Origin: a bacterium
GTDB lineage: Bacteria > Actinomycetota > Acidimicrobiia > Spongiisociales > JAENVV01
Length of the DNA stretch: 37,656 nucleotides
Reading direction: 5' to 3'
NCBI GenBank assembly: GCA_024641305.1
Contig: JAHEDI010000032.1
Span: forward strand, 1-37,656
Positions 10,528 to 28,447 of the stretch are shown piece by piece. Position 1 is the first letter of the stretch. Every line of letters starts with the position of its first letter. Position numbers and translations under genes: made by a program. The notes under the pieces are model-generated. The model saw nothing but the letters and a program-made list of their open reading frames with translations. It was not told the DNA's origin and made no database searches.

Positions 10528-11549
10528 GCCGTACCCGATGAATGGAGATAGTCGACCTCGACGAGTCGGCGTTCGTTCACCGACCGCTTGATGGCGTCGC
10601 ACAGTTGTGCGCTTCGCAAACCGTCCCATCCCGAGGCATTGGGTTCCTCATCGTTCAAGACCGCCGCGGTGAACGCCGCCACCGACAGGCGGTGGGCGTC
10701 GGGGGCAGGGTAATGAGTCCGCTGCTCCCCCGACCGGGTCAGAACCGTCAGGTCGCCGTCGATTCGCGACCGGGTGAACCCGCTTCCGATCATGCGACCG
10801 GTCGATCCGAAGATGCGCAGTTCGTTGACCGGATTGGCAACACTCTCGTTGAAATTACAGTAGGCGAGCGTTCCGGTGTCGAACCGGATCAGGACCAGCC
10901 CGAGTGACTCAACGACGCCGGCGGTCGCCGACCGGTCGAACATTGCCATCACTTCAACCGGCTCAGCCTGCAGGATGACCCTGAGAAAGTCGAGTCCATG
11001 AACACCAACGTTGTGTATCGATCCGAGGCCGGCCATGCCAGGGTCCGTACGCCAGTTGTCCCACGTACGAGCACCTGAGCTCACTTCGAGCTCGACGACC
11101 TGGACGGTGCCGATCGTGCCTTCGCCAATCAATGTCCTGACATCACCGACCCACTTGAGGTGCCGATTATGAAAGTTCACGCCAAGTTTGACGCCGGCCT
11201 CCTGGCAGGCTTCGACTGCCCGAATCGCCTCCGGCACGTTGATCGCCAATGGCTTGTCGCACAGAACGTGCTTCCCAGCGAGGGCGGCTGCTACGACCTG
11301 GTCGGCATGCAACCCGTTGGGAGTAGCGATGAAAACCGCGTCGACTTCAGGGTTGGCGAGCATCTCGTCGTAGTTCGTGTAGGCGTAGCGAGCACCAAAT
11401 GTGGTCGCGAAATCCGTAGCCCTGGCTTGATCGCGACTTACCGCTGCCACCAACTCACAGGACGGTTCGGCAATCATGGCTGGGGCAATCGTGCCTTTGA
11501 CGATGTCACCGATACCGATGATTCCCCATCCGAGGCTCACATCGCTCAT
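10524..11549 (-). CDS. Gfo/Idh/MocA family oxidoreductase (copy 1)
   Basis: A 341-aa NAD(P)-dependent dehydrogenase. The N-terminal Rossmann domain starts with GIIGIGDI. A CDKP motif holds the catalytic lysine (K99; more often EKP). In the C-terminal domain, H184 in HNVGVHGLD marks the active site. Relatives oxidise inositols, glucose-fructose type sugars or sugar derivatives. Start and stop each overlap a neighbour by 4 bp (amidohydrolase upstream, FMN enzyme downstream). It is therefore part of one coupled operon of amidohydrolase, dehydrogenase, FMN oxidase and two exporters. This copy is clearly more distant from copies 2 and 3 than those are from each other. Confidence 0.85.
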   Translation of the reverse strand: MSDVSLGWGIIGIGDIVKGTIAPAMIAEPSCELVAAVSRDQARATDFATTFGARYAYTNYDEMLANPEVDAVFIATPNGLHADQVVAAALAGKHVLCDKPLAINVPEAIRAVEACQEAGVKLGVNFHNRHLKWVGDVRTLIGEGTIGTVQVVELEVSSGARTWDNWRTDPGMAGLGSIHNVGVHGLDFLRVILQAEPVEVMAMFDRSATAGVVESLGLVLIRFDTGTLAYCNFNESVANPVNELRIFGSTGRMIGSGFTRSRIDGDLTVLTRSGEQRTHYPAPDAHRLSVAAFTAAVLNDEEPNASGWDGLRSAQLCDAIKRSVNERRLVEVDYLHSSGTA

Positions 11550-12541
11550 CCCGAGAAACCAAGCAGGCGGGCAGGATTCTCGGACAGGATCGCCTCTTTC
11601 TCGTCATGCTCAAGCTCAGGTAGTCCTCGCACCCAATTCACACAATCCGCCAGCACCATCGGGGCTGGATAATCGGTGCCGAGCACCACTCGCTCGATAC
11701 CGACCGCATCGATGAGAAAGCGAAGCACCGAACCGCTGTATGTGCAGCAGTCGTAGTAGAAGCGGCTGAGGTATTCGCTCGGAGCCAGCTGCTGGGAGAA
11801 CCCATCGTTGCCTTTGAAAACGGGCGTCATTCCCTCGCCAGCCTCAAGCGCCCCGGCTACCTTGTCCATGCGGGCCACCCCGTACGCCGTATACCCACCC
11901 CCATGGGCCAGCAGCGGTTTCAAATCAGGAAACCGATCGAGAACTCCACCGAACACGAGCGTGGCGTACACCAGCGCCCGTTCCGTAAGGTTCCCGACCG
12001 CATTGGGGAGCTTGTACCGACTGTTCCGCTTGGCAATGATGGTGTCCTGGCTCTGATGGAAAAACACAATCGCTCCCAACTCCTCGGCAGCGGCGAAAAA
12101 GGGAAGGAAGTCCGGATCGTCGTAGGTGCGGCCTGCAACGTGGTCGCTGATGACCACTCCCTTCATGCCCAACTCGAGCATGACCCGTTCCATTTCGGCG
12201 ATGGCACTTGGCGGGTCCTGCATCGGGACGATTCCCATGCCGGCAAAGCGGGTCGGATGTTGTTCGACCATCTCGGCAATCTCGTTATTACATTCGCGGT
12301 TGATGAGCCTGGTCTTCGATAGCTCGTTGGCGTACTGGTAGAACCCAACGGTGGGCGTCACAAGCTGCATGTCGACGCCCAGCGCATCCATTTCAGCCAG
12401 TCGGTCCGGAAGCGAAATATCAAACTTGCCGAATCCGAGTTCACCGGGATGCTCGTCGAGGCCGTACCACTCTCCACGGGTCCGAATGGCTTGCTTGTAC
12501 CGTTCGGGTGTCACGTGGGCATGCGTATCGATCACCGGCAT
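11546..12541 (-). CDS. Amidohydrolase-2 (COG2159, ACMSD-like), copy 1
   Basis: A 331-aa metal-dependent TIM-barrel hydrolase or decarboxylase. Metal and catalytic residues are intact: H7-x-H9 (DTHAHV), H162 (FFHQS), H213 (LAHGGGY) and D290 (LGTDYP). The COG2159 family includes ACMSD, gamma-resorcylate decarboxylase, 5-carboxyvanillate decarboxylase and oxalomesaconate hydratase, so the reaction may be decarboxylation, hydration or lactone hydrolysis. It is the promoter-proximal gene of the exporter operon and is divergent from the HpcH/HpaI aldolase gene. An ACGGAG site precedes the ATG. It is one of three paralogues in the window; copies 2 and 3 resemble each other more closely. Confidence 0.84.
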   Translation of the reverse strand: MPVIDTHAHVTPERYKQAIRTRGEWYGLDEHPGELGFGKFDISLPDRLAEMDALGVDMQLVTPTVGFYQYANELSKTRLINRECNNEIAEMVEQHPTRFAGMGIVPMQDPPSAIAEMERVMLELGMKGVVISDHVAGRTYDDPDFLPFFAAAEELGAIVFFHQSQDTIIAKRNSRYKLPNAVGNLTERALVYATLVFGGVLDRFPDLKPLLAHGGGYTAYGVARMDKVAGALEAGEGMTPVFKGNDGFSQQLAPSEYLSRFYYDCCTYSGSVLRFLIDAVGIERVVLGTDYPAPMVLADCVNWVRGLPELEHDEKEAILSENPARLLGFSG

Positions 12542-13466: not shown

Positions 13467-14582
13467 TCAATCGAGGGGCAGACGAATCGTGAGACCGGTA
13501 GCAGCGGCCCGCTCGATTGCCAGAGTTGCCTCCAACGTCGCCCTGGCTTCTTGGGGGGTCGCCAGTTGGCAGGCTTTGCCGGTGGCCAGGTGGTCGAGCC
13601 AGGCACGCGTCTCTGCTGCCAGAGGCCCGATGAACTCGCCAAGCGCCCAATCTCCGGGAGTACCGCTCGACAGAAACACCGCGTTGACGTTGTGGTCCGG
13701 CAGGTAGACATGTGGCACGCCATGATCGCTGTACATCACCTGATCGGTGTGGTCGTCGTCGAGCAACATGACACCATCGGTACCGATCAACTCCACGCGC
13801 GCCGAGTGGCCGAGGGCGGGGTACTTCTCAGGTAGCGAGTAGCACACACCAAGGTTGATGGCGGCACCGTCGTCATACCGCAACATCGCCCACGTCAGAT
13901 CATCGGTCTGATACCCGGCGGCTTCCAACACTCCGCGCTGGCCGACGGCACTGACCTCGACCAGTCGCCGCCCTTCGAAAAACCAGTTCATGAGGTCGAC
14001 GTAGTAGGTCAAGGCATCCACGACCGGGGTGGCACCGGGATTCCGGCCGAGCATCGCCAGCGCTTGCGAACGCGAGTTGTACACCCTGGCGACTCCCCCA
14101 AGCAGGGTTCCCATCCGACCGGTCACGATCTGTTCTTTGGCGACGTGGTACCGGCGCCTGAATCGCCGGCTGTAGCCGACCCGCAGCTCGGCATCGCTCG
14201 CCGCAGCAGCAGCCACAATCCGGTCGGCATCGGCCAGGGTCAGCGCGATAGGTTTCTCCACCAGGACCGACTTGCCGAGGCTCAGAGCGAGCAGAACGGC
14301 CTCGACATGCTCTCCCTCGCTCGTAGCCACAACCACCGCGGTGACATCGGGATGACCGATCGCTTCGGCAATATTGCCGGTCGAGAAGTCGGCGCCGACC
14401 AATTCTGACAACCGACCGGCGGCAATCGCGTCACGATCGGAAACGGCGAGAAAGCCAACAGCCGGATGTTCCGACGCAAGTCGGGCCCGCAACGACCCGA
14501 TCCGGCCCGATCCGACGATCGCCAGGCCAACCTGCCTGCGCACGTGCGCCGACTTCTGCTGCGTATCGATTGGACCCGTCAT
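13467..14582 (-). CDS. Gfo/Idh/MocA family oxidoreductase (copy 2)
   Basis: A 371-aa NAD(P)-dependent dehydrogenase with Rossmann motif GSGRIG, an EKP motif (VLVEKPIAL) and a C-terminal alpha/beta domain. It resembles inositol 2-dehydrogenase-type proteins, but the substrate cannot be named. Of two adjacent ATG codons (14585 and 14582) the second has better spacing (6 nt) from the GAGGGG site; a longer frame to 14627 adds unrelated residues. It is clearly homologous over its whole length to copy 3 (24989-26074): long shared stretches include PVVD, LGVCYMLP-like and LLDDDHxDQ segments. It is convergent with the aldolase gene and divergent from an MFS transporter gene. Confidence 0.85.
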   Translation of the reverse strand: MTGPIDTQQKSAHVRRQVGLAIVGSGRIGSLRARLASEHPAVGFLAVSDRDAIAAGRLSELVGADFSTGNIAEAIGHPDVTAVVVATSEGEHVEAVLLALSLGKSVLVEKPIALTLADADRIVAAAAASDAELRVGYSRRFRRRYHVAKEQIVTGRMGTLLGGVARVYNSRSQALAMLGRNPGATPVVDALTYYVDLMNWFFEGRRLVEVSAVGQRGVLEAAGYQTDDLTWAMLRYDDGAAINLGVCYSLPEKYPALGHSARVELIGTDGVMLLDDDHTDQVMYSDHGVPHVYLPDHNVNAVFLSSGTPGDWALGEFIGPLAAETRAWLDHLATGKACQLATPQEARATLEATLAIERAAATGLTIRLPLD

Positions 14583-14614
14583 CATTATCCCCTCTTGTCC
14601 GCAGCCTGCCGACC

Positions 14615-14637
14615 ACCGGTATTTCATGAATACCGGT
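14615..14637. promoter_or_regulatory. 23-bp palindrome in the divergent Gfo/MFS promoter region
   Basis: ACCGGTATT (14615-14623) and AATACCGGT (14629-14637) form perfect 9-bp arms around a 5-bp centre. It lies 33 bp upstream of the Gfo/Idh start and 13 bp upstream of the first MFS start. It is probably an operator for both genes. Possible promoter elements overlap it: CTGACA on the minus strand and CATAAT at 14645-14650 on the plus strand. Confidence 0.55.
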
Positions 14638-14649
14638 CGATATTACATA

Positions 14650-15852
14650 ATGTCAGATATGGAATCTGCCCGGCGAGGATTTGGTTCGCCGATCCCCTGG
14701 ATGGTGGCCCTCAACGTGATCGGTGTGAACCTGATCGCGCCAGTGCTCCCCGCCTATGCCAGCCATTTCGGAGTCGGATTTGCCGCCGCTTCGACCTTGG
14801 TTACTGTCTTTGCCCTCGCTCGTATGAGTCTTCGTCTGACCGCCGGTTCATGGGCCGATCGCTACGGGTCTCGAATCGTTTGCATCGGCGGCGGAGCCGT
14901 CCAAACAGTCGGCGCGCTGCTAGCGGTCTTCGCCCCGAGCCTGAGCCTTCTCCTGGCAGCGCGAGCCATCCAGGGAATGGGATCAGCCCTTTTCGGAACC
15001 TCGATCAATCGATACCTACTGGTCGTCACCGGCAAGGCGGAGCTTGGTAGAGCTACCGCTGGCTTCCAGGGCGGGATCCTCCTGGGAAGCACCATCGGCC
15101 CGCTCGTCGGTGGCATAGTCGCTGAACGGTTCGGAATATTCGCTCCGTTCTATGTGCAGGCCACCATCGCCGCGCTGCTCGCCATTGTGAGCAGTCAGTA
15201 CATTCGCGATGGCGCCCTCCCGGCGAGAACAGATGCAGCTACGCCAGCGCAAACTCGATCCTTCCGATCCGTGCTTCAGATCCGTGGGTTCAAGGTGATC
15301 ATGTTCCTTGGTTTCGGCCTGTTTTTCTTACGGGCTGGTGCGATCAGTGTCCTCATCCCCGCCTTCGCTGACGTGGTACTCGACTTGTCTCCAGCCATGA
15401 TCGGATTCCTAATCTCCCTCGGGTCGATCACCTCGCTCATTGCCATGCCTATCGCCGGTCAGGTCGCTGACCGGTTCGGGCGAATCCCGGTGGCACTGGC
15501 CGGGGCGTTTAGTACCGCAGCAACGGTAACCCTGTTCGGCCTGGCCGACAGTGCCATAGGCATGATGGTCATCTCGGCTCTGCTGGGCTTGGGGATCGGG
15601 TTGGCAGCGGTTGCGCTCCCGACCATGATCGGTGATATCGCTCCGTCCGGAACCGAAGGACGAGCCAGCGCCGTATATCGCATGGCCAATGATCTCGGTT
15701 GGGTGGTCGGACCGGTGACCCTAGGACTACTGGCGGACAGTGCTCGGTACGGCCTGGCCTTTGCAGTAGCCGGACTACCTCTGGCGATGGGCGGAGCCAT
15801 TCTCATGCGATGGCGTCAGGCGAACGGGGACGCCGGTTTGGGGTCACGCTAG
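14650..15852 (+). CDS. MFS transporter
   Basis: A 400-aa major facilitator with twelve predicted helices, a SWADRYGSRIV loop 2-3 motif and a matching GQVADRFGRIPV loop in the second half. It resembles YfcJ/multidrug or sugar-acid MFS permeases. Start choice is uncertain: ATG 14650 (MSDMES) or ATG 14659. No ribosome site precedes either. A CATAAT at 14645-14650 would place the transcript start near 14657, so leaderless translation from 14659 is possible. The gene is divergent from Gfo/Idh copy 2 across the 23-bp palindrome and is probably co-regulated with it. It may import the substrate of that dehydrogenase. Confidence 0.82.
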   Translation: MSDMESARRGFGSPIPWMVALNVIGVNLIAPVLPAYASHFGVGFAAASTLVTVFALARMSLRLTAGSWADRYGSRIVCIGGGAVQTVGALLAVFAPSLSLLLAARAIQGMGSALFGTSINRYLLVVTGKAELGRATAGFQGGILLGSTIGPLVGGIVAERFGIFAPFYVQATIAALLAIVSSQYIRDGALPARTDAATPAQTRSFRSVLQIRGFKVIMFLGFGLFFLRAGAISVLIPAFADVVLDLSPAMIGFLISLGSITSLIAMPIAGQVADRFGRIPVALAGAFSTAATVTLFGLADSAIGMMVISALLGLGIGLAAVALPTMIGDIAPSGTEGRASAVYRMANDLGWVVGPVTLGLLADSARYGLAFAVAGLPLAMGGAILMRWRQANGDAGLGSR

Positions 15853-15859
15853 GACCTCG

Positions 15860-16804
15860 TCAGGCGCCGCCCAGATCGTCCCGGATGCCGTCTCGCCTTG
15901 CGACCCGAGCCGCCACGATACGCCTAGTCTCGTCTACCCGGTCAGCCGGAACCAGCTCCAAAATGCGACCCTCATCATCAGCAATCCTGATGAGATCATC
16001 GAACGCCGCAGGCATGACGTACGGGTGTCCGAAGAACGCGGTCGTCTGAAAGATCACCTCAAGCAGCTCACGAGGTCCAGCACCCACGCGCATCGCCGCC
16101 CGCATATGCCGCCTGGACTGATGGGTTTCCCCGACTGCCAGGGTCGCACCAACAACACACAGGAGACGGGTCCGGTCGTCGACAACGCCCCGCGTATACA
16201 TGCCGTCATACACCGCGTCGAGCCAGATTTGGAGGAAGTCAGGATCTAGCGCATCGAGGGTATCCAACATGTTGAGGTGATGGCTCGGGCGAAGCCGAAG
16301 GCCCGTGGATATGCCGTGCCAGCCGTACCGTTCCAGCAGGTCGTTGAGCCGGGGATCAGCCGCATCATCCGCCGACCAGGTTGGGCGCTCGTCGGCGAGT
16401 CGTCTTTCCCGTTCAGCGGCCGGTTCCGACCGGCGCTCCTCTACCTCCGGGGTCGACTCAATCACCGTTTCGTAAATCTGGCACGCTTCCGCCACAACCC
16501 ACGGTCCGGTGTACACATACGCTTGAAGAATGACCTCCCTGAGCTCCTCGGGTGGCACCCCAGCTCTTTGGGCCGCTGCCAGGTTCTCCTTGAGTTGCCC
16601 AAACCGTTGCGTCACCGTGTACTGCATGGTGAGGATCAGGAATCGGGTCCGGACGTCTAGTTGGGTTCGCGCCAACAATCTCGACACATGTTTGGACCAG
16701 ACGACCGCAAAATCGGGATCAATGCGGCCGAAGAGCCGACTCAGTCGTTCACCAGCCTCCGGAAGAAACATCTCAACCGGCGTTTCGTTCGGTGACGAGT
16801 CCAC
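15860..16804 (-). CDS. Tandem carboxymuconolactone decarboxylase-like protein
   Basis: A 314-aa protein with two CMD-like helical domains, roughly residues 25-120 and 180-280, joined by an acidic and arginine-rich linker. Each repeat shows the CMD pattern of an R-x-L helix followed by AL/AM-x-x-GA-x-x-EL-x-E-x-I-x-Q. The AhpD-type CxxC is absent from both, so it is not a peroxidase. The first repeat lacks the usual His (LKENL), and the second keeps one (RRHMRAA). The start is GTG, 6 bp after the stop of amidohydrolase copy 2. It is the last gene of the five-gene amidohydrolase/CMD block. It may be a lactone or beta-ketoacid decarboxylase or a non-catalytic partner. Confidence 0.72.
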   Translation of the reverse strand: MDSSPNETPVEMFLPEAGERLSRLFGRIDPDFAVVWSKHVSRLLARTQLDVRTRFLILTMQYTVTQRFGQLKENLAAAQRAGVPPEELREVILQAYVYTGPWVVAEACQIYETVIESTPEVEERRSEPAAERERRLADERPTWSADDAADPRLNDLLERYGWHGISTGLRLRPSHHLNMLDTLDALDPDFLQIWLDAVYDGMYTRGVVDDRTRLLCVVGATLAVGETHQSRRHMRAAMRVGAGPRELLEVIFQTTAFFGHPYVMPAAFDDLIRIADDEGRILELVPADRVDETRRIVAARVARRDGIRDDLGGA

Positions 16805-16810
16805 GTCGAC

Positions 16811-17806
16811 TCAGAGGTCCAGTAAATCCGCGGCGTTGCCGCCCAGCACAGCGATTCGCTCATCGTCGGACAAGTCACTGCCTTCGATCCAGCTAACCGG
16901 ATCGACCTGACCCATGTCAGCAGGGAAGTCTGTGCCAAGCATTACTCGATCTACCCCCACGACATCAACGAGACGACGGAGGTTTTCGTAGCTGTGCACC
17001 AGCGAGTCGTACCAGAGCCTACTGAGGTATTCGGATGGGAACAGGGCCGCGTGCTGGCGCGCTTCGGCGCGGACCTCGTAGGCATGATCGAACCGGGCCA
17101 CTGCCCAGCAGGCATATCCGCCGCCATGCGCAAACAATGTCTTGAGATCGGGCAGCCGGTCGAAGACCCCGCCGAAGATCATAGATCCAATGGCGATGGT
17201 GGTTTCGGTGGGGTTGGCGATCGCGTTGTGCAGGTGGTAGCGAGGGAGATGTGTTTCGAGCCGACGGTCAGACGGATGAAAGAAAACCAGCGCTCCCAAT
17301 TCTTGAGCAGCCTCAAGAACCGGAAACAGATGGGGCTCATCCCAGTTGGCCTCGTCAACGTGGGTTCCTACCGAGACCCCGACCATGCCGGGGATCTGCA
17401 TGACCCGTTCCATCTCCTCGATGGCTCGATTCGGGTCCTGCATCGGTAACGCCCCGTAGCCGGCAAACCGATCCGGCCATTGCGTGATGAAACCGGCGAT
17501 CTCGTCGTTAATCGAACGGGAGGCGGCGGCACCATCGTCGGAGCCGAGGTAATAGCGAAAGAAGATCGGGTTGAGCGATAGAATCTGCATGTCGACGCCC
17601 CCCTCGTCCATCCGTTCGATTCGTCGTTCCATCGACTCGTAGTGGGCCTTGCCCCCCATGACCTCCCGACGGTCACCGGTGACGATGATCGGCCGTCCGA
17701 GATCGTCATTTTCGATTTCCGATCCGAACCAGCCAGAGCCCGTTTCAGCTGCGGCAATCGCCGATCGTGGCAACAAATGGGCATGGACGTCGATAACTTT
17801 GGTCAT
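16811..17806 (-). CDS. Amidohydrolase-2 (COG2159, ACMSD-like), copy 2
   Basis: A 331-aa metal-dependent hydrolase or decarboxylase. Ligands are complete: H8-x-H10 (DVHAHL), H177 (FFHPS), H227 (FAHGGGY) and D293 (LGTDFPADMG). It is closer to copy 3 than to copy 1: both share GTDFP/GSDYPADMG-DPV and the L-x-SLVH block. The start ATG overlaps the stop of the upstream CMD gene (ATGA). It lies in the middle of the amidohydrolase/CMD block, so its product likely acts in one pathway with those proteins. Possible reactions are decarboxylation or ring-lactone hydrolysis. The sequence does not choose between them. Confidence 0.84.
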   Translation of the reverse strand: MTKVIDVHAHLLPRSAIAAAETGSGWFGSEIENDDLGRPIIVTGDRREVMGGKAHYESMERRIERMDEGGVDMQILSLNPIFFRYYLGSDDGAAASRSINDEIAGFITQWPDRFAGYGALPMQDPNRAIEEMERVMQIPGMVGVSVGTHVDEANWDEPHLFPVLEAAQELGALVFFHPSDRRLETHLPRYHLHNAIANPTETTIAIGSMIFGGVFDRLPDLKTLFAHGGGYACWAVARFDHAYEVRAEARQHAALFPSEYLSRLWYDSLVHSYENLRRLVDVVGVDRVMLGTDFPADMGQVDPVSWIEGSDLSDDERIAVLGGNAADLLDL

Positions 17807-18201
17807 TGGTTAGCAACCTCGGGTCGCCAGCCTTCCGTTTCAAGCTCTGCCAGAGCCTCGAGCATGCAGGTGACCCCGTAGGTGAGTACCCGGGCGCCCG
17901 CCGGATTCACCGCCACCATGAGAGCCTCTGCAATCTCTTCTGGATCGGCTCCGAGCTGAAGGGCTTTCTTGATATGGGCGGTCAAATGCGGCTGGTTGTG
18001 GGGGTTCGAGCCCAGTACTGCCAGCGCAACGATATGGAACAGCTCGTGGCCCTTCTCGTCGAACCGCCGTGGCCGGCGCCGGATAATGTCGTCGAGATGC
18101 AGCATCGTCTCGGTGTAATCGGGAAACCGTTCGGCTATCCAGGCGTGAGCCGGGTATTGCTTGCCGCGCCGCTCGGCAAATTCCTCGGCAAGCTGGCTCA
18201 T
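17803..18201 (-). CDS. Carboxymuconolactone decarboxylase-like protein (small, A)
   Basis: A 132-aa single CMD-like domain. The core helix pair is visible around residues 70-110 (HLTAHIKKALQLGADPEEIAEAL). It has no CxxC, so peroxidase activity is unlikely. CMD proteins usually form trimers or hexamers of such domains. It overlaps both neighbours by 4 bp (amidohydrolase copy 2 downstream, CMD B upstream). It is a paralogue of the next gene, and the pair may assemble as a hetero-oligomer. A role in decarboxylating a 3-oxo acid or lactone made by the amidohydrolases is inference. Confidence 0.75.
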   Translation of the reverse strand: MSQLAEEFAERRGKQYPAHAWIAERFPDYTETMLHLDDIIRRRPRRFDEKGHELFHIVALAVLGSNPHNQPHLTAHIKKALQLGADPEEIAEALMVAVNPAGARVLTYGVTCMLEALAELETEGWRPEVANQ

Positions 18202-18641
18202 GTCTTGTCCTCCATATACGTGCGCCGTTCGTGCTCGGGGCGATCAGAGATTCGATGTCCGACATCGGGTGGCTCGTACTCTCCTCGTTCCTTGAGTACG
18301 TCAACCACGCAGCGCAAGCCGTGGATAAGCGTGCGCGACCCGGACGGGGTCCATGCCACGAGAATGGCATCGATGAGCTCAGTGCGGTTGGCTCCCGCAT
18401 CAAGCGCCTTGTGCATGTGATTCTTGGCAACGGTGTCTTCGCCCAAAACAGACGCGGTGGCTGCATAGACGAGCTCTCGATACTTGGCAGGAAGCCCGTT
18501 CGGTCGATCCGTGTTGACCTGGGTCCAGGTAGCGTCAAAAGACCGGAGAAAATCGGGGGCTTCTTCGGCCAGAAGTACTTGCCACTCGAACAGGTAGCCC
18601 CGCTTGGCGTACATCTCATCGAGCAATTCCTGATCTGGCAT
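18198..18641 (-). CDS. Carboxymuconolactone decarboxylase-like protein (small, B)
   Basis: A 147-aa single CMD-like domain, paralogous to the next gene. The helix pair reads NHMHKALDAGANRTELIDAILVAW, with no CxxC. An AGGAG site lies 6 nt before the ATG. The gene follows amidohydrolase copy 3 by 20 bp and overlaps CMD A by 4 bp. The order amidohydrolase, CMD, CMD, amidohydrolase, double CMD is regular enough to suggest that the amidohydrolases and CMD proteins act on one set of intermediates. The substrate is unknown. Confidence 0.75.
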   Translation of the reverse strand: MPDQELLDEMYAKRGYLFEWQVLLAEEAPDFLRSFDATWTQVNTDRPNGLPAKYRELVYAATASVLGEDTVAKNHMHKALDAGANRTELIDAILVAWTPSGSRTLIHGLRCVVDVLKERGEYEPPDVGHRISDRPEHERRTYMEDKT

Positions 18642-18661
18642 GCAGACTCCTTGGGTGCGGT

Positions 18662-19657
18662 TCAGCCCAGCAGTCCGCTGAGATTCCTGGAAAGTATCTT
18701 CAGACGCTGTTCGTCGTCGAGCCGGGGATGAGAGCGGATGAACTCGACCGGATCGGGTTCTCCCATGTCGGCCGGGTAGTCACTGCCAAGCACGATCTGG
18801 TCGATGCCGGCCAGATCGATGATCTGGTCAAGCGTGCGATGACCATGCACCAGCGAGTCAAAGAACAGACCTTTCAGGTAGTCGGAAGGCATTCGGGCAA
18901 TGCCTTGCGCCTCGGCGCGGGCCAAATATCCATGGTCCATGCGAGCAATGCCAAGACAGCCGTAGCCACCCCCGTGGGCAAAGCAGAGCTTGAGGTCGGT
19001 CAACCGGTCGAGCACCCCCCCGAAGATGAGACTGGCGAGTGCCACCGTGGTCTCCAGCGGATTCCCGACGAGGTTTTTGAGGTGGTAGTTCGGGAGGAAC
19101 GAATTGGCTCTGCCCCGGGCCGGATGAACGAACACCAGAGTGTTGAGATCCTGGGCCGCCTCAAGCACGGGAAAGAGTTCGGGGGCGTCCCAATCGAGTC
19201 CATCGATGTTGGTACCGACGAGGACCCCGGCGAAGCCCAGATCGCGTACACACCGTTCAAGTTCCTTGACCGAGGCGGCCGGGTCCTGAAGCGGCAGAAA
19301 GCCCATGCCTCTGAATCGGGCCGGGTAGCTGCTGACAATTTCTGCGATGTCATCATTGGTCTCGGTGGCCAACGACCGGCCATCGGCCGGATCCGTGTTG
19401 TACCAATGCATGGACGGGCTGAGCGAAAGCAAATGCACATCCACCCCAATGGCGTCCATCGATGCCACCCGTTCGGCCGGGGTCTGAAGCGGAGTTGGCC
19501 ACGGGAGCGCGAACGGTTTTCCACCGACCGAACTCGTTACCTTGCCGTTCGAGTCGCGTCCAAAATCGATTCCGTAACGCAAGCCACCGCGCTGGGCTGC
19601 TTCGGCAAGTCGGGGAGGCACGATATGCGTGTGGACATCGATGACGTCATCGCTCAT
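18662..19657 (-). CDS. Amidohydrolase-2 (COG2159, ACMSD-like), copy 3
   Basis: A 331-aa metal-dependent hydrolase or decarboxylase with intact H9-x-H11 (DVHTHI), H178 (FVHPA), H228 (FAHGGGY) and D293 (LGSDYPADMG). The start at 19657 is chosen because the family begins right there (DDVIDVHTH) and a GAGAGG site precedes it; a frame reaching 19741 adds unrelated residues. It is the first gene of the amidohydrolase/CMD block, so the promoter should lie between 19658 and 19791, shared with the divergent UspA gene. Among the three copies it is closest to copy 2. Confidence 0.84.
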   Translation of the reverse strand: MSDDVIDVHTHIVPPRLAEAAQRGGLRYGIDFGRDSNGKVTSSVGGKPFALPWPTPLQTPAERVASMDAIGVDVHLLSLSPSMHWYNTDPADGRSLATETNDDIAEIVSSYPARFRGMGFLPLQDPAASVKELERCVRDLGFAGVLVGTNIDGLDWDAPELFPVLEAAQDLNTLVFVHPARGRANSFLPNYHLKNLVGNPLETTVALASLIFGGVLDRLTDLKLCFAHGGGYGCLGIARMDHGYLARAEAQGIARMPSDYLKGLFFDSLVHGHRTLDQIIDLAGIDQIVLGSDYPADMGEPDPVEFIRSHPRLDDEQRLKILSRNLSGLLG

Positions 19658-20298: not shown

Positions 20299-21195
20299 CT
20301 ATTTGGACGATCCTGCCGTAAGTCCCGACACGACATATCTCTCGAGCCGGGTGTATACGAGGATAAACGGCAATACCGTGATGACGGCGAAGGCCGCCTC
20401 GGCAGGGAAGTTCGAAATCCCTTCGCTCTGTCCCATTTTGAACAACGCGAATGGCAGAGTTCTGGTGGTGGGATTGGTTGTGAGCACCAACACGAGGGTG
20501 AACTCGTTCCAGGCCTCCCGGAACGCCAGCACGGCAATGGTGATAAGCGCCGGAGCGGCTAACGGCATAACGATGAACCGCAGGCGATCCCATAGGTTGG
20601 CACCATCGACATCGGCGGCTTCCTCGATCTCGCGCGGGATCTGTTGGAAGAACCCGACCATGAGCCAGACCGCCAGAGGGACCAGTGTTCCGGCATAGAC
20701 AATGATCAAGGTAATCCGCTTGTCCAGCATGTTGGTCGCCACCGCCAACCGGTAGATCGGAACCAGGATGCCGATACTCGGGACCAGCCGGGGTAGCAGC
20801 GTGAAGAGCAGCAAGAGGTGTCGGCCGCGAAACTTGAACCTGGCGAATGCGTAGGCGGCCGGAAGCCCGATAACGATCGTCAAAAGTGCCGTCCCGAACC
20901 CAACCACCACGCTGTTTACGAACGCATTCAGGAAGTTCGGATCCGTGAAGACCTCTTTGTAGGCATGGAGTGTGGGCTGTTGAGGAACCAGCCCGAGGTT
21001 GGCAAACGTCTCGATCTTGGTCTTGATCGAAACGGACAGGGTCACCAGGAAGGGAATGAACGTCCAAACCGCCAGCATGAACAACGGCAACCCGACCAGT
21101 AATCGATGCCCGAACTTGGCGAGTTCCGTTCGCGGTTTGCCGGCCATGTGGCCGCGGCTACCTACTTTGGTTGCGTCAATCAAGTGCTCAGCCAT
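20299..21195 (-). CDS. ABC sugar transporter permease (MalG-type)
   Basis: A 298-aa membrane protein with six predicted helices and the cytoplasmic EAA loop EEAADVDGANLWDRLRFIVMP, the docking site for the ATPase. It is the second permease of a CUT1-type carbohydrate importer. It overlaps the upstream permease by one base (TGATG), so the two are co-translated. No ATPase gene follows; the operon ends here against the UspA gene. A shared MsmK-like ATPase encoded elsewhere must energise it if the system works. Confidence 0.87.
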   Translation of the reverse strand: MAEHLIDATKVGSRGHMAGKPRTELAKFGHRLLVGLPLFMLAVWTFIPFLVTLSVSIKTKIETFANLGLVPQQPTLHAYKEVFTDPNFLNAFVNSVVVGFGTALLTIVIGLPAAYAFARFKFRGRHLLLLFTLLPRLVPSIGILVPIYRLAVATNMLDKRITLIIVYAGTLVPLAVWLMVGFFQQIPREIEEAADVDGANLWDRLRFIVMPLAAPALITIAVLAFREAWNEFTLVLVLTTNPTTRTLPFALFKMGQSEGISNFPAEAAFAVITVLPFILVYTRLERYVVSGLTAGSSK

Positions 21196-22133
21196 CAGGC
21201 CTCGATCTCGTAGCGGCGGGCAACCCTCACGTAACCCAACGTGAGCACGGCGTTCAGGATCAGGATGAAGGTAGCGATGGCCAATGCCTCATTGAATTTC
21301 AATGCCCGGAAGGCGACGTTGTACATCTCCATCGCCAAGGTGGTCGTCGACCCAATCGGGCCACCACCGGTTAGAGCGAGCACAACCCCGAGACCGGTGA
21401 GGGTCGAGTAACTGAGCCAAACAGTCGAGATGACAAGCTGCGGGGCGAGCAAGGGAATTGTGAGGTATCGAGCCCGTTGCCAGGCCGAGGCACCATCGAC
21501 CAGGGCGGCGTCGAGGTAGGACGTGTCGATCGTCATCAAACCGCCCAAGAGAAGCAGGATCGTCAATGGGATGTCGGTCCAAACCTGCGTGAAGATCACC
21601 ACGGTCATCGCCCAGGTTGTCGAGGAAAGCCAGGCGGGTCCGTCGATGCCGACCGTTCCAAGAACACTGTTGATCAAGCCGAGATCAGAGTTGAACAAGA
21701 GTCGAAACATGACGGCGGCAGCCACATTCGAGATCAGATACGGTGCCAGGGTCGCCGCCCGCATCCATCGAAGGCGCCCAATGGAACGGTAGAGGGCAAA
21801 TGAAAACAGCAATCCGAGGGCGGTGCCAACGACAAGACAGCCACCGACGAAGAATCCGGTCCGGTACAAAGCGCTCCAAAAATCAGGGTCGCCGAACATG
21901 TCGGAATAGTTGAGACCACCGACGAATTCCTCGGGGAGACCCAGTTCAGGAGCTCGGTACAGACTCTGCCAGATTCCGTAAAGCACCGGAAACGCCAGAA
22001 CCGCGCTGACGGCGAATATGGCCGGGAACGAAAAGAGATATGGAGTAGCCCGGCCTTGGCCGATCTGGGCGCCGTTCCGTTCGCGAGCCTTTGACTGCTC
22101 CGGACGCTTTTTTTGTTCCTGTGTGGCGGTCAT
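21195..22133 (-). CDS. ABC sugar transporter permease (MalF-type)
   Basis: A 312-aa membrane protein with six helices and an EAA-type loop LDAALVDGASAWQRARYLTIP. It pairs with the MalG-type permease to form the CUT1 transmembrane channel. The N-terminal 30 residues are basic and cytoplasmic. It lies 134 bp downstream of the binding-protein gene, and that gap holds a strong inverted repeat. The substrate is likely a mono- or oligosaccharide or sugar derivative, inferred only from family and context. Confidence 0.87.
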   Translation of the reverse strand: MTATQEQKKRPEQSKARERNGAQIGQGRATPYLFSFPAIFAVSAVLAFPVLYGIWQSLYRAPELGLPEEFVGGLNYSDMFGDPDFWSALYRTGFFVGGCLVVGTALGLLFSFALYRSIGRLRWMRAATLAPYLISNVAAAVMFRLLFNSDLGLINSVLGTVGIDGPAWLSSTTWAMTVVIFTQVWTDIPLTILLLLGGLMTIDTSYLDAALVDGASAWQRARYLTIPLLAPQLVISTVWLSYSTLTGLGVVLALTGGGPIGSTTTLAMEMYNVAFRALKFNEALAIATFILILNAVLTLGYVRVARRYEIEA

Positions 22134-22267: not shown

Positions 22268-23572
22268 TTACAGGTCGTCAAGTAGTGGCTGGTACTGGTC
22301 GGCTAACTCTTGAGCCGTCTTGTCGGTTCCCACGACGATCTCACCGAACAGCTGCTCGAGGACGAGCTCTACCTCGCCACCGTTGAGACCGGACGGCACC
22401 GAGTCGCTCCCCGAGTAGGCGGCTCTCAGGCCCTCGTTGAAGAAGGGCCAGATGTCATCCAACCGTGGATCGGCGAGTGCAACGCTGTTGCGCATCGGTA
22501 CCGAACCGCCGGCGGCTGCATCCACGAGTTGATCCACTGTCCCGACCCATTCAATGGCCTGCATCGCTTCGTGCGGATACGGGGTCGAAGAGGTAATTGC
22601 CCAGGAGCGGGCATTCGAGATCTGGTTACCGCTACCTGAGGTTGGCGATGGAATGACGTTCCATTCGGTGCCGAGATTGAACCCTTCCAGTTCGTTGAAC
22701 TCACCAGCGACGGTGAACCCGTCGAGAATGAACGCTGCACGCTGGCCGGCAAAGGCGCCACGAGCCTCGTCTTCACCCCAGGAGATCGCCTGTGGTGGCA
22801 ACAAGCCCTCATCGGATGCCTGCAGCCACCAGTTCAAAACGTACAGACCACCTTCGGACTGCAGGTCCGGTACGGCACCGTCAAAGGGTGCGCCGGCCGC
22901 GCTAAAGAGGGTCTTCAGCGTGGTGATGCCGGTGCCCGGCTTTGCCTGAACGGTCAACGGAATGATGTCAGGGTCCGATGCCTTCACGGCTCGCATCGCG
23001 TCAAGGAAGCCATCGAGTGTTGTGATACTCGCACAGTCGACTGAGGCTGCCTCACACGCTGCGAGGTTGTAATAGATGACATCGAAGTTGGCCGTCAACG
23101 ACACCCCGTAGATCCCGTCGCCGAACATATTCTCTTCCCAGGCGATGGGGAGAATCTGGTTGTAGGCATCAGGATCTTCTTGCTCCCACAGATTCTTCTG
23201 CTCCGTCATGTCAAGCAGCAGCCCAGCGTTCTGGTAGGCCTCAATGAGGAACGTGTCGTCCTGGATGACATCCGGGAGTCGCTGTCCGGCGTCTTGCATA
23301 CGCTGGAGCTGCTGCAAAATATCATCGTTCGATTCCGTCTGCACGGTCACTTTGATGTTCGGATGCTCTGCCATAAACCCGGCCCACAAATCCGGTGGTC
23401 GGTAATAATCGCGGGAAGCCCAAATGAGCAGATCGATTTGCTCGTCGCCTCCGCTGGTACCTCCGGTTGCCGTCGTTGTATCGGACGATGACCCGCCGCA
23501 GGCGGCGACCACCATCGATAGGACTGCGAACAACGCCACAATCCGTGTCCATTTTCCAGTAGAACGAGTCAT
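22268..23572 (-). CDS. ABC sugar-binding lipoprotein (family 1)
   Basis: A 434-aa extracellular solute-binding protein. A signal peptide ends in the lipobox VVAAC with lipidated Cys25, followed by a Ser/Thr/Gly-rich tether. The mature part has the two-lobed layout of CUT1 binding proteins and is rich in Trp and acidic residues. It is the first gene of the importer operon. The AAAGGGAA ribosome site is about 12 nt from the ATG. A leader of at least 230 nt separates it from the operator-like site at 23801-23819. The ligand cannot be assigned; neighbouring sugar dehydrogenases suggest a sugar or polyol. Confidence 0.88.
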   Translation of the reverse strand: MTRSTGKWTRIVALFAVLSMVVAACGGSSSDTTTATGGTSGGDEQIDLLIWASRDYYRPPDLWAGFMAEHPNIKVTVQTESNDDILQQLQRMQDAGQRLPDVIQDDTFLIEAYQNAGLLLDMTEQKNLWEQEDPDAYNQILPIAWEENMFGDGIYGVSLTANFDVIYYNLAACEAASVDCASITTLDGFLDAMRAVKASDPDIIPLTVQAKPGTGITTLKTLFSAAGAPFDGAVPDLQSEGGLYVLNWWLQASDEGLLPPQAISWGEDEARGAFAGQRAAFILDGFTVAGEFNELEGFNLGTEWNVIPSPTSGSGNQISNARSWAITSSTPYPHEAMQAIEWVGTVDQLVDAAAGGSVPMRNSVALADPRLDDIWPFFNEGLRAAYSGSDSVPSGLNGGEVELVLEQLFGEIVVGTDKTAQELADQYQPLLDDL

Positions 23573-23948: not shown

Positions 23949-24983
23949 TCAATCTTCGCTCATCAACATCTTGAGCCGGTCGAGATTGTCGGGACTCATC
24001 TCGAGTTGCCCACGGTCAATCTGGCCGTAGATCTCGAAGACCGCCGAGTTGGCGGGGGTTCGAACGCCAACCTCAGCACCCTTCTTGACGATGAGACCCG
24101 TGATGAACTCATATTCGCTGCGTCGCCCCTTTCGCTGATCTTGCACGACGGCGGTTACGGCATCTTCGCCAACATGGGCATTGAGCGTGTCCATTGCCTT
24201 GAGGAGAACCTCGTCGGTTCCGCCACTGAACTCTTCAGCGCTCAGACCAAACACGGGTTCAAGTCGATACCCGAGGGCTTTTCCGACCGCAACGGACTCC
24301 TTTCCCAAACTCACCGAAATCTCTCGCATACCCGGCAATCGGGCAGCTTCCGCGTTGCGCAGTCCGAACAATCCAAACGGACCCATGACCATGGTGTTGG
24401 CGACCAGCTTGGTCCACTTTGAGCCATAAATGTTCGTCGACACTTCGGTTCTGGCAACCGCCGACAGAAGGTCGGCCAGCCTCTCAGCCCGAGCGGTAAT
24501 GGAGCCGTCCAGTTCCCCAACGGTTAGCCAGGTACCCGAACGAGAGGTGTTGCGGGTCACGATGCCTGGTTCATAGATGTCGCCCGACAACTCGATGGCA
24601 CATCCGATTGTCCGACCACGTCCAACGATCTCAGCATGCGCATCGTCGTTCATCGAGTTCTGAATGCCGACCAGTACGCCGTCTTTCGCAAGATACGGTT
24701 CAATAAGTTGCACGGCCCATTTGGTGTCGTACGACTTCACGCAAATAATGGCCAGATCAAACAGCGGTTTGATGGAAGCCAAATCACAAATGTGATTGGC
24801 ATTGACAGAAACATGCAGGTCAAGGTCTGGCATGTTGATACGGAGCCCGTCCGACCGCATCTTCTCAACATGCTCAGGCCACTGGTCAATTATGGTGACA
24901 TCGTGGCCGGCGTCGGTGAGGTCGGCGGCAACACTCGAACCGATCGCGCCTGTTCCGACCACACCAATCTTTGTGAAAGCCAT
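23949..24983 (-). CDS. Ketopantoate reductase-family (ApbA/PanE-like) dehydrogenase
   Basis: A 344-aa NADPH-dependent 2-keto acid reductase fold. It has a Rossmann motif GTGAIG, an N109 in the QNSMN loop and a catalytic lysine K192 in SKWTKLVAN. The C-terminal domain carries the acidic residue in GRRSEYEFITG. It begins 5 bp after the Gfo/Idh copy 3 stop, on the same strand. It probably works in the same pathway and need not be a true pantothenate enzyme. Many PanE-like proteins in catabolic clusters reduce other branched or sugar-derived ketoacids. Confidence 0.83.
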   Translation of the reverse strand: MAFTKIGVVGTGAIGSSVAADLTDAGHDVTIIDQWPEHVEKMRSDGLRINMPDLDLHVSVNANHICDLASIKPLFDLAIICVKSYDTKWAVQLIEPYLAKDGVLVGIQNSMNDDAHAEIVGRGRTIGCAIELSGDIYEPGIVTRNTSRSGTWLTVGELDGSITARAERLADLLSAVARTEVSTNIYGSKWTKLVANTMVMGPFGLFGLRNAEAARLPGMREISVSLGKESVAVGKALGYRLEPVFGLSAEEFSGGTDEVLLKAMDTLNAHVGEDAVTAVVQDQRKGRRSEYEFITGLIVKKGAEVGVRTPANSAVFEIYGQIDRGQLEMSPDNLDRLKMLMSED

Positions 24984-24988
24984 CCCGA

Positions 24989-26074
24989 TTAGCCCTGGTC
25001 GATCGGAACGGATTTACCCGTGGCCAGGGACTGCTCGATGGCCGACGTCACGGCAACCACCCGGCGAGCCTCCTGGACCGTGGTGAGATGACAATCGGAT
25101 CCACTCGCCAGATAATCGATCCACGACCTGGTTTCGTTGGCCAATCGACCGAACATGGTGTCGCCGACCCATTCACCTGTGGTCCGACTACCGAGGAACG
25201 CGAAGTTGAGCTCCTGGTTGGTTGCATACGAGTTTCGATAGCCGCGTTCTGAAAACAACATCTGATCGCGATGGTCGTCATCAATCAGCAGGGCCCCTTC
25301 GGTGCCGAAGACCTCGAAACGAATACTCTGTCCGGTCGTTGGAAACCCCATCGGCAACATATAACAAACCCCGATATCGACCACTGTTCCGTTGCTGAAA
25401 CGGATCATCGCCCAGGCCACGTCATCGACGTCAAATCCGTGTTCCCGAAAGACGGTGCCGTGGCCGCGGGCCACTACTTCGACCGGTACCTGCGGGGCGA
25501 GGTACCAGCACGCCACATCCACCAGATATGTGGCGATGTCGACGACCGGGGTGGCGTCTGCCGAACGGTTCAGAATGGCGAGACCCTGGGCGCGGGAGCT
25601 GTAAACCCGACCGGTAAGGCCGACCACCTCGCCAATCATCCCGGAGGCGACGTTGTCCCAGCCAACTGAATACTTCTGCAGGTATCGCATCGAGTAACCG
25701 ACCCGAACATCTACATCGGCTGCTTCTGCCGCAGCGACGATCTGATCGGCATCGTCAAGTGTCAGGGCGAGCGGCTTCTCGATGAGCACCGGTTTTCCAG
25801 AAGCAATTGCTGCCAGAGCGGGTCCGGTGTGATGGGGCTCCGACGTAGAGATGACGATGGCGTCAACTCGCTCGTCTGAAGCCAGCTCCTCGACCGTCTC
25901 TGCTACCAGATCGGCATCAAGATCCTCTCCGACGCCAACGGCTCTGCCGTGATCGGCATCCATCAAAGCCAGAAAATCAACCGATGGGTGCTGAGCGGCC
26001 AGCCGGGCTCGTTGGAGTCCGATCTTTCCGGTACCAACAACACCAATTCCAATATCGCGTCTATTCCGGGCCAC
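24989..26074 (-). CDS. Gfo/Idh/MocA family oxidoreductase (copy 3)
   Basis: A 361-aa NAD(P)-dependent dehydrogenase with Rossmann motif GTGKIG, an EKP motif (VLIEKPLAL) and a C-terminal domain with conserved PVVDIATY and IDDDHRDQ segments. It is homologous along its length to copy 2, so the two are likely paralogues on related substrates. It starts at GTG (26074), with a GGGGAGG site 5 nt upstream. It lies 18 bp downstream of the MLE-type enolase-superfamily gene and 5 bp before the PanE-like gene. The three genes form one transcription unit under the site A promoter. Confidence 0.85.
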   Translation of the reverse strand: MARNRRDIGIGVVGTGKIGLQRARLAAQHPSVDFLALMDADHGRAVGVGEDLDADLVAETVEELASDERVDAIVISTSEPHHTGPALAAIASGKPVLIEKPLALTLDDADQIVAAAEAADVDVRVGYSMRYLQKYSVGWDNVASGMIGEVVGLTGRVYSSRAQGLAILNRSADATPVVDIATYLVDVACWYLAPQVPVEVVARGHGTVFREHGFDVDDVAWAMIRFSNGTVVDIGVCYMLPMGFPTTGQSIRFEVFGTEGALLIDDDHRDQMLFSERGYRNSYATNQELNFAFLGSRTTGEWVGDTMFGRLANETRSWIDYLASGSDCHLTTVQEARRVVAVTSAIEQSLATGKSVPIDQG

Positions 26075-26092: not shown

Positions 26093-27202
26093 TCACGCCG
26101 AGACCTGCTCGCTCCACTTCACGTATCGCTTTACGACGGCCTCATCAACCTCTACACCCAGGCCGGCGCCCTCGGGGACCCGCAATTCCCCGTTCGCCAA
26201 CCCGACAGGGTTGAACACCAGATCATCAACCAGCTTGTGATTGCTCAGACCGATCCCCCCACTCATCTCTGGCAGCGCAGTGCCGATGTGAAGCATGGCC
26301 GATCCCCCGATGCTCGACGTCGCCGACTTACCAGCAACGTTTACGCCCAGTCGCAACAATCGTGCCAGATAGGCCGCAGACATGAACCCCGTGATCCCAC
26401 CCATCTTGATGGTCTTCATGCTCACGCCGGCCACCCCAACTTCCGCGTGGGCGATCAGGTCGGCAGGTTCATTAAACGACTCGTCGGTGTAGATAGGTAC
26501 CGGACTGCGTTCGGCGACCGACCTCAACCGGCTCAAACTCCCCGGGGCAATCGGCTGCTCACAAAATGCCAGGTCGACGTCAGCAACAGCTTCGAGGAAC
26601 CGTAACGCCTCGGCTGGCGACCAGGCGCCGTTGGCGTCGATGGCAAACGGAACATCGGGACCGATCGCCGCCCGAATCTCTCGGAGTGCAGCTTGTTCAA
26701 AGGCTGGATCGGCGACTGACACTTTCGCTTTGAATGCCTGGACCCCTCGTTGTCTCCACTCGCCGGCTTTCTGGGCATCGTTGGGGTCGGCGTTCACTCC
26801 AAGTGAGGCAGGAAGCGTGTCCCTGGCCCTCCCTCCAATGAGTTGAAAGGCCGGCACACCAAGGTGTTTGCCGGCGATGTCGTAAATTGCCATGTCGATG
26901 GCGCAAACCGCGCTCTGATTGTTGGCCAGGGCAGCTGAGATCCGGGTATGGATTGCCGATACCGACTGCGGATCTTGCCCAATGACCAGATCGGCCAGAT
27001 AGGCGATCGAAGCCGCAATCCGGGCGCCTGTATCACCGGTTAGGAGGGGCGCAGAGGCTGCTTCTCCCCATCCCACCAGGCCCGTGTCGGTTTCGATTCT
27101 GACGAGTGCATTATCGGCATCGTGCTGGACACGGCCCGCCTTGCGAAACGGAGACGTCATCGGAATGGTGACGTGCATAGCCTCCACTTTGGTGATCTTC
27201 AA
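26093..27202 (-). CDS. Enolase superfamily, muconate-lactonizing subgroup
   Basis: A 369-aa member of the enolase superfamily with the MLE-type active site. It has K158-x-K160, metal ligands D189, E215 (CEQP) and D240 (YTDES), and K263 on the opposite face. The D/H dyad of mandelate racemases is absent, so it is mechanistically distinct from the 3040-4125 enzyme. Such proteins are cycloisomerases, dipeptide epimerases, o-succinylbenzoate synthases or racemases. The start is TTG at 27202, chosen because a GAGGAG site lies 7 nt upstream and the frame starts with the family's KITKVEA. It is divergent from Gfo/Idh copy 4. Confidence 0.84.
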   Translation of the reverse strand: MKITKVEAMHVTIPMTSPFRKAGRVQHDADNALVRIETDTGLVGWGEAASAPLLTGDTGARIAASIAYLADLVIGQDPQSVSAIHTRISAALANNQSAVCAIDMAIYDIAGKHLGVPAFQLIGGRARDTLPASLGVNADPNDAQKAGEWRQRGVQAFKAKVSVADPAFEQAALREIRAAIGPDVPFAIDANGAWSPAEALRFLEAVADVDLAFCEQPIAPGSLSRLRSVAERSPVPIYTDESFNEPADLIAHAEVGVAGVSMKTIKMGGITGFMSAAYLARLLRLGVNVAGKSATSSIGGSAMLHIGTALPEMSGGIGLSNHKLVDDLVFNPVGLANGELRVPEGAGLGVEVDEAVVKRYVKWSEQVSA

Positions 27203-27293: not shown

Positions 27294-27451
27294 ACGAGGC
27301 GGACGGCCGGCGTGTCGCAACAACACGCTCAAATCTGATCAGACAGACAGAACGGGATCAGCCAGATCGCCTCCCGTTGCCCGAATGTGGCAGGCGGAAG
27401 CGCCAGGTGGACGATCGGAGCGATCCCCACCCACCTACCGAATGGAGCATG

Positions 27452-28447
27452 ATGGAATCGTTGAGAGTGGCCTCAGTTGGACTCGGTTGGTGGGGCGCCA
27501 TGCTCGCCGAAAAGGCGACCAAGGCTGGTATCAGTCTTGTCGGTTGTTATGCCAGAACGCCGGAGAGCCGGGACGAATTCGCCGCCGCCCATGGAGGCCG
27601 ACCCGCCGCAACACTCGATGAACTTCTCTCGGACCCCGATGTCGAAGCGGTCATGATCGCGACTCCTCACTCCACTCATGCCGACCTGGTTGCAGAAGTA
27701 GCCGCCGCCGGCAAGCACGTGTTTGTGGACAAACCATTCACGCTGACGGTCGCCGAGGCCAAACGAGCGATCCGCGCCGCCGAGCAGGCGGGGGTCGTGC
27801 TTCAGGTTGGGCACAATCGACGTCGCCAACCGGCCACCCGAAGACTGAAGGAGATGGTGGATGCGGGGACACTCGGCATGATCCATTACGCCGAAGCCAA
27901 CCTCTCATACCCCAAGGGGCTCACTCCTCGGAGCGGGTGGCGGGGCGATCCGGCAGAGAGTCCGGCTGGAGGCATGGCCGGGCTGGGAGTCCACATGGCT
28001 GACAATCTCATCTATTTGCTCGGGCGTCCCGCCAGGGTGGCCGCCTTCAGCAAGCAGATCATCGCCGTTCGTCACCTCGACGATGTCACTACCGCCAATA
28101 TCGAATTCGAGGGCGGACCGTTGGCGTTTCTTGGATCGGCCATGGTCATCCCCGACATTGCCCGCACCGCGGTATGGGGCACCGAAGCTGCTGCCTGGAA
28201 CGAGAACGACGGCGAAGAATTCTATTTTCAGCCGGTCGGCGAGAAAGTGCGAACGCGCCAACCCGTGGCAACGCTTGATACCGTCGCAGACGAACTCGAA
28301 GAATTCGCCCGCAACATTCGCACGGGCAGCCGACCAGAGACGGGTGGTCCAGAGGCACTTGAAGTCGTCGCCCTGTTCGAAGGCATCGTCGAAAGCGCCG
28401 CCACCGGACGGGTGGTGGATCTCGACGAAGTCCGCTCCAGGAGCTAG
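27452..28447 (+). CDS. Gfo/Idh/MocA family oxidoreductase (copy 4)
   Basis: A 331-aa NAD(P)-dependent dehydrogenase. Visible are Rossmann motif GLGWWG, a DKP motif (VFVDKPFTL), R/N-rich HNRRRQ after the first domain and GGMAGLGVHMADNL in the second. The start is the second of two adjacent ATGs (27452), because a GGAG site is 4 nt away; the first would be too close. It is divergent from the enolase-superfamily gene, with the 19-bp operator between them. It is more distant from copies 2 and 3. The substrate is unknown and may be an oxidised sugar or cyclic polyol. Confidence 0.84.
   Translation: MESLRVASVGLGWWGAMLAEKATKAGISLVGCYARTPESRDEFAAAHGGRPAATLDELLSDPDVEAVMIATPHSTHADLVAEVAAAGKHVFVDKPFTLTVAEAKRAIRAAEQAGVVLQVGHNRRRQPATRRLKEMVDAGTLGMIHYAEANLSYPKGLTPRSGWRGDPAESPAGGMAGLGVHMADNLIYLLGRPARVAAFSKQIIAVRHLDDVTTANIEFEGGPLAFLGSAMVIPDIARTAVWGTEAAAWNENDGEEFYFQPVGEKVRTRQPVATLDTVADELEEFARNIRTGSRPETGGPEALEVVALFEGIVESAATGRVVDLDEVRSRS

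Follow-up and report, generated by a model that had tools for sequence, protein, structure and literature searches.

A conserved five-gene block of ACMSD-like amidohydrolases and CMD-family proteins as the candidate core of a catabolic pathway

The window analysed here is a whole stretch of 37,656 nucleotides (G000:C7:1-37656) from a genome of 3.42 Mb in 93 contigs, whose near relatives among the matches are Acidimicrobiia metagenome assemblies. Within it, five genes on the minus strand, running from 19657 to 15860 in the order amhA, cmd1, cmd2, amhB and dCMD, bring together two amidohydrolases resembling ACMSD and three proteins of the carboxymuconolactone decarboxylase (CMD) family. The block recurs in other genomes, and on balance we favour the reading that an undescribed catabolic pathway is built around it, with enzymes that would act in sequential steps on an organic substrate brought in by an ATP-binding cassette (ABC) importer.

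All five open reading frames were confirmed. amhA (18662-19657) encodes an Amidohydro_2 protein of 331 residues from an ATG start, the longest TTG-started open reading frame extending to 19741, and amhB (16811-17806) encodes a second such protein, also of 331 residues (Pfam E-values of 2.7e-37 and 8e-44, respectively). cmd1 (18198-18641; 147 residues) and cmd2 (17803-18201; 132 residues) match Pfam CMD with E-values of 1.4e-11 and 1.5e-08, and dCMD (15860-16804; 314 residues, GTG start) has two CMD domains and matches it at 1.3e-15 in two stretches. The first-pass annotation, made from the sequence alone, had described five co-directional genes joined by 4-base-pair overlaps or short gaps, with no CxxC motif in any of the CMD domains. 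Both statements hold: cmd1 overlaps cmd2 at 18198-18201 and cmd2 overlaps amhB at 17803-17806, the gaps between amhA and cmd1 and between amhB and dCMD are 20 and 6 base pairs, and CxxC is absent from every CMD domain of the block. When the window is compared with L022, a distant Acidimicrobiia contig, each of the five genes differs mostly at third codon positions (a proportion of 0.50-0.61, against 0.07-0.26 at the first two positions). Thus, all five are under strong constraint at the protein level.

Scanning 84,980 species genomes with amhA yielded 50 loci. That the gene order might be conserved nowhere, an outcome the first-pass annotation had allowed for, is contradicted by L022, where all five genes lie together in order at 74, 80, 87, 78 and 69% identity (amhA to dCMD) and where abcS-abcB-abcC, the genes of the importer, lead straight into amhA, co-directionally and with no gene between. 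Two loci of the same genus (L044 and L095) keep the block at 91-97%. Elsewhere it is found in parts: amhA-cmd1-cmd2 in L023 and amhB-dCMD in L092 of the same genome, cmd2-amhB-dCMD in L093 (same genome as L024), and, in L025/L094, amhA, amhB and dCMD without cmd1 and cmd2, amhB and dCMD being adjacent in L025. The amhB-dCMD adjacency is seen in seven of seven Acidimicrobiia genomes. In the marine Rhodobiaceae/OCS116, cmd2 (67-71%) directly follows amhA (50-53%), and an orthologue (49-50%) of the window's Gfo/Idh/MocA dehydrogenase gene gfo3 lies on the facing strand. In the representative marine locus, L035, a TauD dioxygenase gene overlaps gfo3, with MmgE/PrpD, a muconate-lactonizing-enzyme-subgroup (MLE) enolase, gfo4 and HIBADH farther on; TauD, MmgE/PrpD, MLE and gfo4 accompany amhA-cmd2-gfo3 in most Rhodobiaceae/OCS116 loci.

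Pairing of the two families is not confined to the block. The window genome holds 11 Amidohydro_2 and nine CMD genes, and four of the nine immediately adjoin an Amidohydro_2 gene; in 200,000 random placements, for which a total of 3,300 genes was assumed, four such adjacencies never arose and three arose three times. A second island, on contig C27 (G000:C27 ~27400-39700; L017 1434-13723), reads CaiB-amhF-CMD-amhE-PPIase facing gfo-mle, followed by MmgE/PrpD-TauD-amhD, IclR and gfo. It thus carries three ACMSD-like amidohydrolases with a CMD gene between two of them, and the order amhF-CMD-amhE is repeated in L133 at 59-78%. The marine genomes G670 and G675 have a second locus (L146 8695-15228 and L147 3458-9893) with a relative of amhB (40-44%), a relative of gfo3 (37-41%), a PcaC-like CMD gene, an ApbA gene and a 2-hydroxyacid dehydrogenase gene, together with a TauD-type dioxygenase, a BKACE and an LLM-type protein, these three judged by eye from their N-termini. 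In the Bauldia assembly G678, an amidohydrolase and a CMD gene lie no more than about 3 kb apart on each of two further contigs. Because similar neighbourhoods recur in the C27 island and the second marine locus, and because no random placement reached four, the pairing goes beyond chance; at the level of gene neighbourhood it is real, and the repeating pairs of the first-pass annotation extend to amhA-cmd2 across two phyla, to amhB-dCMD and to these further neighbourhoods.

The C27 island also contains the orthologues of the marine-locus TauD (57%) and MmgE/PrpD (70%). Among 42 genomes, TauD is present in 14 of 14 with cmd2 and in none of the 28 without it; for MmgE/PrpD (at 66% or more) the corresponding counts are 13 and zero. 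Restricting the count to genomes that carry amhA leaves TauD in 14 of 14 with cmd2 against none of four without (Fisher 3e-4). gfo3 orthologues adjoin TauD in the marine loci and in L135, and the adjacency in L135 therefore links contigs C7 and C27 functionally. The Bauldia TauD orthologue (G678:C47:23448-24453; L137 9437-10661) is split across two reading frames, either because the gene is broken or through an error of assembly.

We then compared the amidohydrolases with proteins of solved structure. amhA and amhB are 45% identical, and in the tree the amhA clade (support 99/95) spans Acidimicrobiia and Alphaproteobacteria apart from amhB, long branches being flagged mostly elsewhere and inside the clade only for L042 (0.38) and L025 (0.33). 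At E ≤ 1e-3, amhA has 45 solved relatives and amhB 48, human ACMSD being the top one for both (4e-68 and 1e-63). The model of amhA (predicted local distance difference test, pLDDT, 89; predicted template-modelling score, pTM, 0.90) superposes on ACMSD with a TM-score of 0.87 at 39% identity, followed by isoorotate, carboxyvanillate and resorcylate decarboxylases. The five metal ligands that had been read in both sequences are confirmed by alignment to human ACMSD: H6, H8, H174, H224 and D291 are kept in amhA, in amhB and in all orthologues covering those positions. Sequence and fold searches thus support the earlier placement of both enzymes in a decarboxylase family, on the side of COG2159 occupied by ACMSD and 5-carboxyvanillate decarboxylase (5CVD).

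Resemblance to ACMSD (human 4igm/4ofc/2wm1; Pseudomonas 2hbv), the closest relative by sequence, includes the five metal or catalytic residues and Arg235/239, which comes from the neighbouring subunit and is kept in amhA and amhB. It ends at several positions. In the Arg47/51 column, where the local alignment is gappy, amhA, amhB and their orthologues have no Arg, the aligned residues being LPWP in amhA and MGG in amhB; Trp191/194 is replaced by Asn in both; and Arg183 of amhA, within the loop that follows ligand three, is invariant across amhA and amhB. Arg47 (human) or Arg51 (Pseudomonas) is essential for ACMSD catalysis (title of PDB 4ifk) and is mutated to Ala in 4ign. Since this residue is missing, we reject an identification of amhA or amhB as ACMSD (EC 4.1.1.45); no kynurenine or 3-hydroxyanthranilate genes are found among the window's annotated genes. 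They are probably ACMSD-like enzymes for another substrate. The next-best solved relatives, the 5-carboxyvanillate, gamma-resorcylate and isoorotate decarboxylases, catalyse metal-dependent non-oxidative decarboxylation, the kind of reaction proposed for amhA and amhB, differ in gene neighbourhood and are about 21-25% identical to amhA; we know of no CMD or Gfo partners for them. In protocatechuate 4,5-cleavage, the Gfo/Idh/MocA enzyme LigC works with LigJ, a COG2159 hydratase acting on a ring-cleavage product. LigJ 4-oxalomesaconate hydratase is matched weakly by amhA and amhB (E 1e-8 to 1e-14), and no ring-cleavage dioxygenase is found among the window's annotated genes. Five alphaproteobacterial loci (L047, L049, L053, L058 and L063) have tandem ACMSD-like amidohydrolase genes and no match to the block's CMD proteins.

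The CMD proteins belong to PF02627 (bit scores of 35.0, 44.6 and 57.6 against a gathering cut-off of 23), and neither an AhpD nor a PcaC role fits them. AhpD-type peroxidase-cycle proteins have the CMD fold in common with them, but an AhpD-like peroxidase or antioxidant role was rejected because the CxxC redox motif is absent. PcaC, the 4-carboxymuconolactone decarboxylase (TIGR02425), shares the fold family as well; dCMD, however, scores 56.2 bits where the curated threshold is 155.7, NCBIfam gives no match to cmd1 or cmd2, and an identification as PcaC was rejected on these scores. No protocatechuate genes are found among the window's annotated genes. The model of cmd2 (pLDDT 75) matches 1vke and 2af7 with a probability of 1.00 and a modest TM-score of 0.48, and the protein's histidine-rich, unusually constrained core carries the invariant motif HELFH(x11)H(x3)H(x3)H; one might guess from the sequence that these histidines bind metal. 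cmd2 is also rare, occurring in five of 395 genomes of the class and one of 296 of the phylum, the window's own genome counted. Among plasmid records, cmd1 and cmd2 have no match and amhA matches distant amidohydrolases only; the single good relative of dCMD (about 42%) is in Sinorhizobium, next to cyclase, BKACE and FAA hydrolase genes, with no amidohydrolase listed. In the Bauldia assembly, cmd2 and amhA are on separate contigs; at L091 6749-8929, cmd2 and an AMP-binding acyl-CoA-synthetase-like gene converge. Elsewhere in the window genome, two CMD-family genes (G000:C20:5433-5678, L015; G000:C12:32345-32566, L016) have an in-frame TGA as CxxU (CDY*G and CNY*G), and these may be AhpD-like selenoproteins.

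The reactions, their order and the class of substrate proposed in what follows are inferred from the observed gene order, conservation, co-occurrence, fold and residues. The substrate would enter through the sugar-type ABC importer and be oxidised by the Gfo/Idh/MocA and ApbA-type dehydrogenases; the MLE and MmgE/PrpD enzymes would rearrange the product and TauD would hydroxylate it. amhA and amhB, as metal-dependent enzymes, would then each act on a carboxylated intermediate of its own, which it would decarboxylate non-oxidatively or, less probably, hydrate. cmd1 and cmd2, next to amhA, and dCMD, next to amhB, might carry out cofactor-free decarboxylation or an isomerisation or double-bond shift, so that amidohydrolases and CMD proteins would work in sequence and not as one fixed complex. 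The cmd2 branch would also need the TauD-type 2-oxoglutarate dioxygenase and MmgE/PrpD, encoded on C27 here and beside amhA-cmd2 in the marine relatives. More tentatively, it is possible that cmd2 represents a new subfamily of CMD proteins whose chemistry, perhaps metal-binding, is distinct and that, together with TauD, MmgE/PrpD and an ACMSD-like enzyme lacking the substrate Arg of ACMSD, it makes up a new pathway for a common compound, present in both marine Rhodobiaceae/OCS116 and Acidimicrobiia. Cyclitols, anhydro-sugars and, from a weak DgpA match to gfo3, C-glycosides were considered as substrates and found no support.

Several points weigh against a single sequential pathway. Without the Arg47/51 and Trp191/194 of ACMSD, the reaction of amhA and amhB could differ from the one proposed. 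CMD-family proteins have several activities. The co-occurrence counts are phylogenetically non-independent, covering at least three lineages (Acidimicrobiia, Rhodobiaceae and the Bauldia assembly), and the genomes beyond the window's relatives were picked by their match to amhA; most of all the genomes counted are draft metagenome assemblies. Finally, G667, the genome of L025, keeps amhA, amhB, dCMD and the importer and is without cmd1, cmd2, TauD and MmgE/PrpD, a gene content that may mean that the two halves of the block are separate pathways.

This last point leads to the first of two serious rivals that remain, namely that two independent pathways, amhA with cmd1/cmd2 (plus TauD, MmgE/PrpD and gfo3) and amhB with dCMD (plus ApbA), have been fused in Acidimicrobiia. 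We regard it as rather unlikely. Besides G667, which retains one half without the other, it would account for marine Rhodobiaceae holding the two sets apart, amhA-cmd2-gfo3-TauD in L035 and the amhB relative with gfo, PcaC-like CMD, ApbA and 2-hydroxyacid dehydrogenase in L146/L147; however, both marine loci occur in one genome (G675), as would equally be expected of two stages of one pathway, and the halves are joined in several Acidimicrobiia lineages.

The second rival, to which we give a lower probability and call unlikely, is a non-phosphorylative sugar pathway, in which the importer would bring in a sugar, Gfo enzymes would make a sugar lactone from it, amhA and amhB would hydrolyse lactones with the CMD proteins as accessories, and the aldonate would be dehydrated by mandelate-racemase-subgroup (MR) or MLE enzymes and cleaved by HpcH-type aldolase or FAA-hydrolase proteins. 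It draws on the importer, whose binding protein has sugar-binding proteins as its closest solved relatives, on gfo3, with 1,5-anhydrofructose reductase and inositol dehydrogenases as its best solved relatives, and on the island's four Gfo dehydrogenases, HpcH-type aldolase, FAA hydrolase and MR-subgroup enolase mle1 (3040-4125; Asp/His pair). The conserved set, however, contains mle2, which is of the MLE and not the MR subgroup, HpcH, FAA and mle1 fall outside the conserved linkage in other genomes, and the solved relatives of amhA (45) and amhB (48) include no COG3618-type lactonase.

A stable multi-subunit decarboxylase, with each amidohydrolase bound to its CMD partner, would fit the adjacencies of amhB-dCMD in Acidimicrobiia and of amhA-cmd2 across two phyla, as well as the 4-base-pair overlaps, which suggest translational coupling. 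It is nevertheless improbable, because the genes occur without their partners: amhA is without any cmd2 in G667, G668, G669 and G671, the two are on different contigs in G678, and the Sinorhizobium dCMD stands without a listed amidohydrolase. To our knowledge, ACMSD requires no partner protein. Where the first-pass annotation had offered a multi-step or multi-subunit system, the conserved unit stands and the obligate multi-subunit assembly is unsupported. That annotation had overlooked the importer, the Gfo/Idh/MocA, ApbA and MLE genes that partner the block, and the C27 genes for TauD and MmgE/PrpD that track cmd2. A chance cluster of unrelated genes, both families being common in the genome, has next to no probability and was rejected, since it is refuted by the gene order conserved across lineages, with the random placements and the phyletic co-occurrence also against it.

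We therefore return to the sequential pathway. All of its enzyme families are known, and we would class the combination as an undescribed variant within a familiar type, the catabolic gene cluster; no paper describing this amidohydrolase-CMD gene combination was found among the open PubMed Central papers searched, which is weak evidence that it is unpublished. If the reading is true, amhA, cmd2, TauD, MmgE/PrpD and gfo3 are a marker set for one catabolic pathway that both Acidimicrobiia and marine Alphaproteobacteria with small genomes have retained and whose substrate is therefore a widespread organic compound, and the annotations "amidohydrolase" and "carboxymuconolactone decarboxylase" conceal a recurrent functional partnership. 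The block offers small, testable enzymes, the reactions of which would fix the pathway.

The rest of the island surrounds the block. Upstream of amhA, all on the minus strand, are two sugar-type ABC permease genes (20299..21195, whose L022 orthologue immediately precedes amhA, and 21195..22133), the sugar-type solute-binding protein gene (22268..23572; best solved relatives 4qrz, 6q5g and 6h0h), an ApbA/PanE-type dehydrogenase gene (23949..24983), found close to the block in L024, L025 and L092 too and with a distant relative in L146/L147, gfo3 (24989..26074) and mle2 (26093..27202), in which KxK, the D/E/D ligands and a Lys at strand 6 are read from the alignment. gfo4 (27377..28447, plus strand) has an orthologue (37-41%) in the marine loci. 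On the other side are an MFS (major facilitator superfamily) transporter gene (14374..15852, plus strand), whose true start lies further downstream than listed and whose linkage to the block recurs in L022, L044 and L093, and gfo2 (13467..14627, minus strand), a gfo3 paralogue (45%) whose linkage to the block recurs in L022. The third amidohydrolase noticed 4.3 kb away is amhC (11546..12541, minus strand), which overlaps gfo1 (10524-11549); the distance is correct as measured from amhB and is 3.3 kb from the block edge. Membership of amhC in the block is unsupported, as it lies outside the conserved block in other genomes. Farther along, 29399-29923 encodes a cupredoxin-like protein in which a stretch rich in Met, His and Asp (HMNGFGQTDGYHPMNG...) is repeated; a two-component system adjoins it at 29968-31778.

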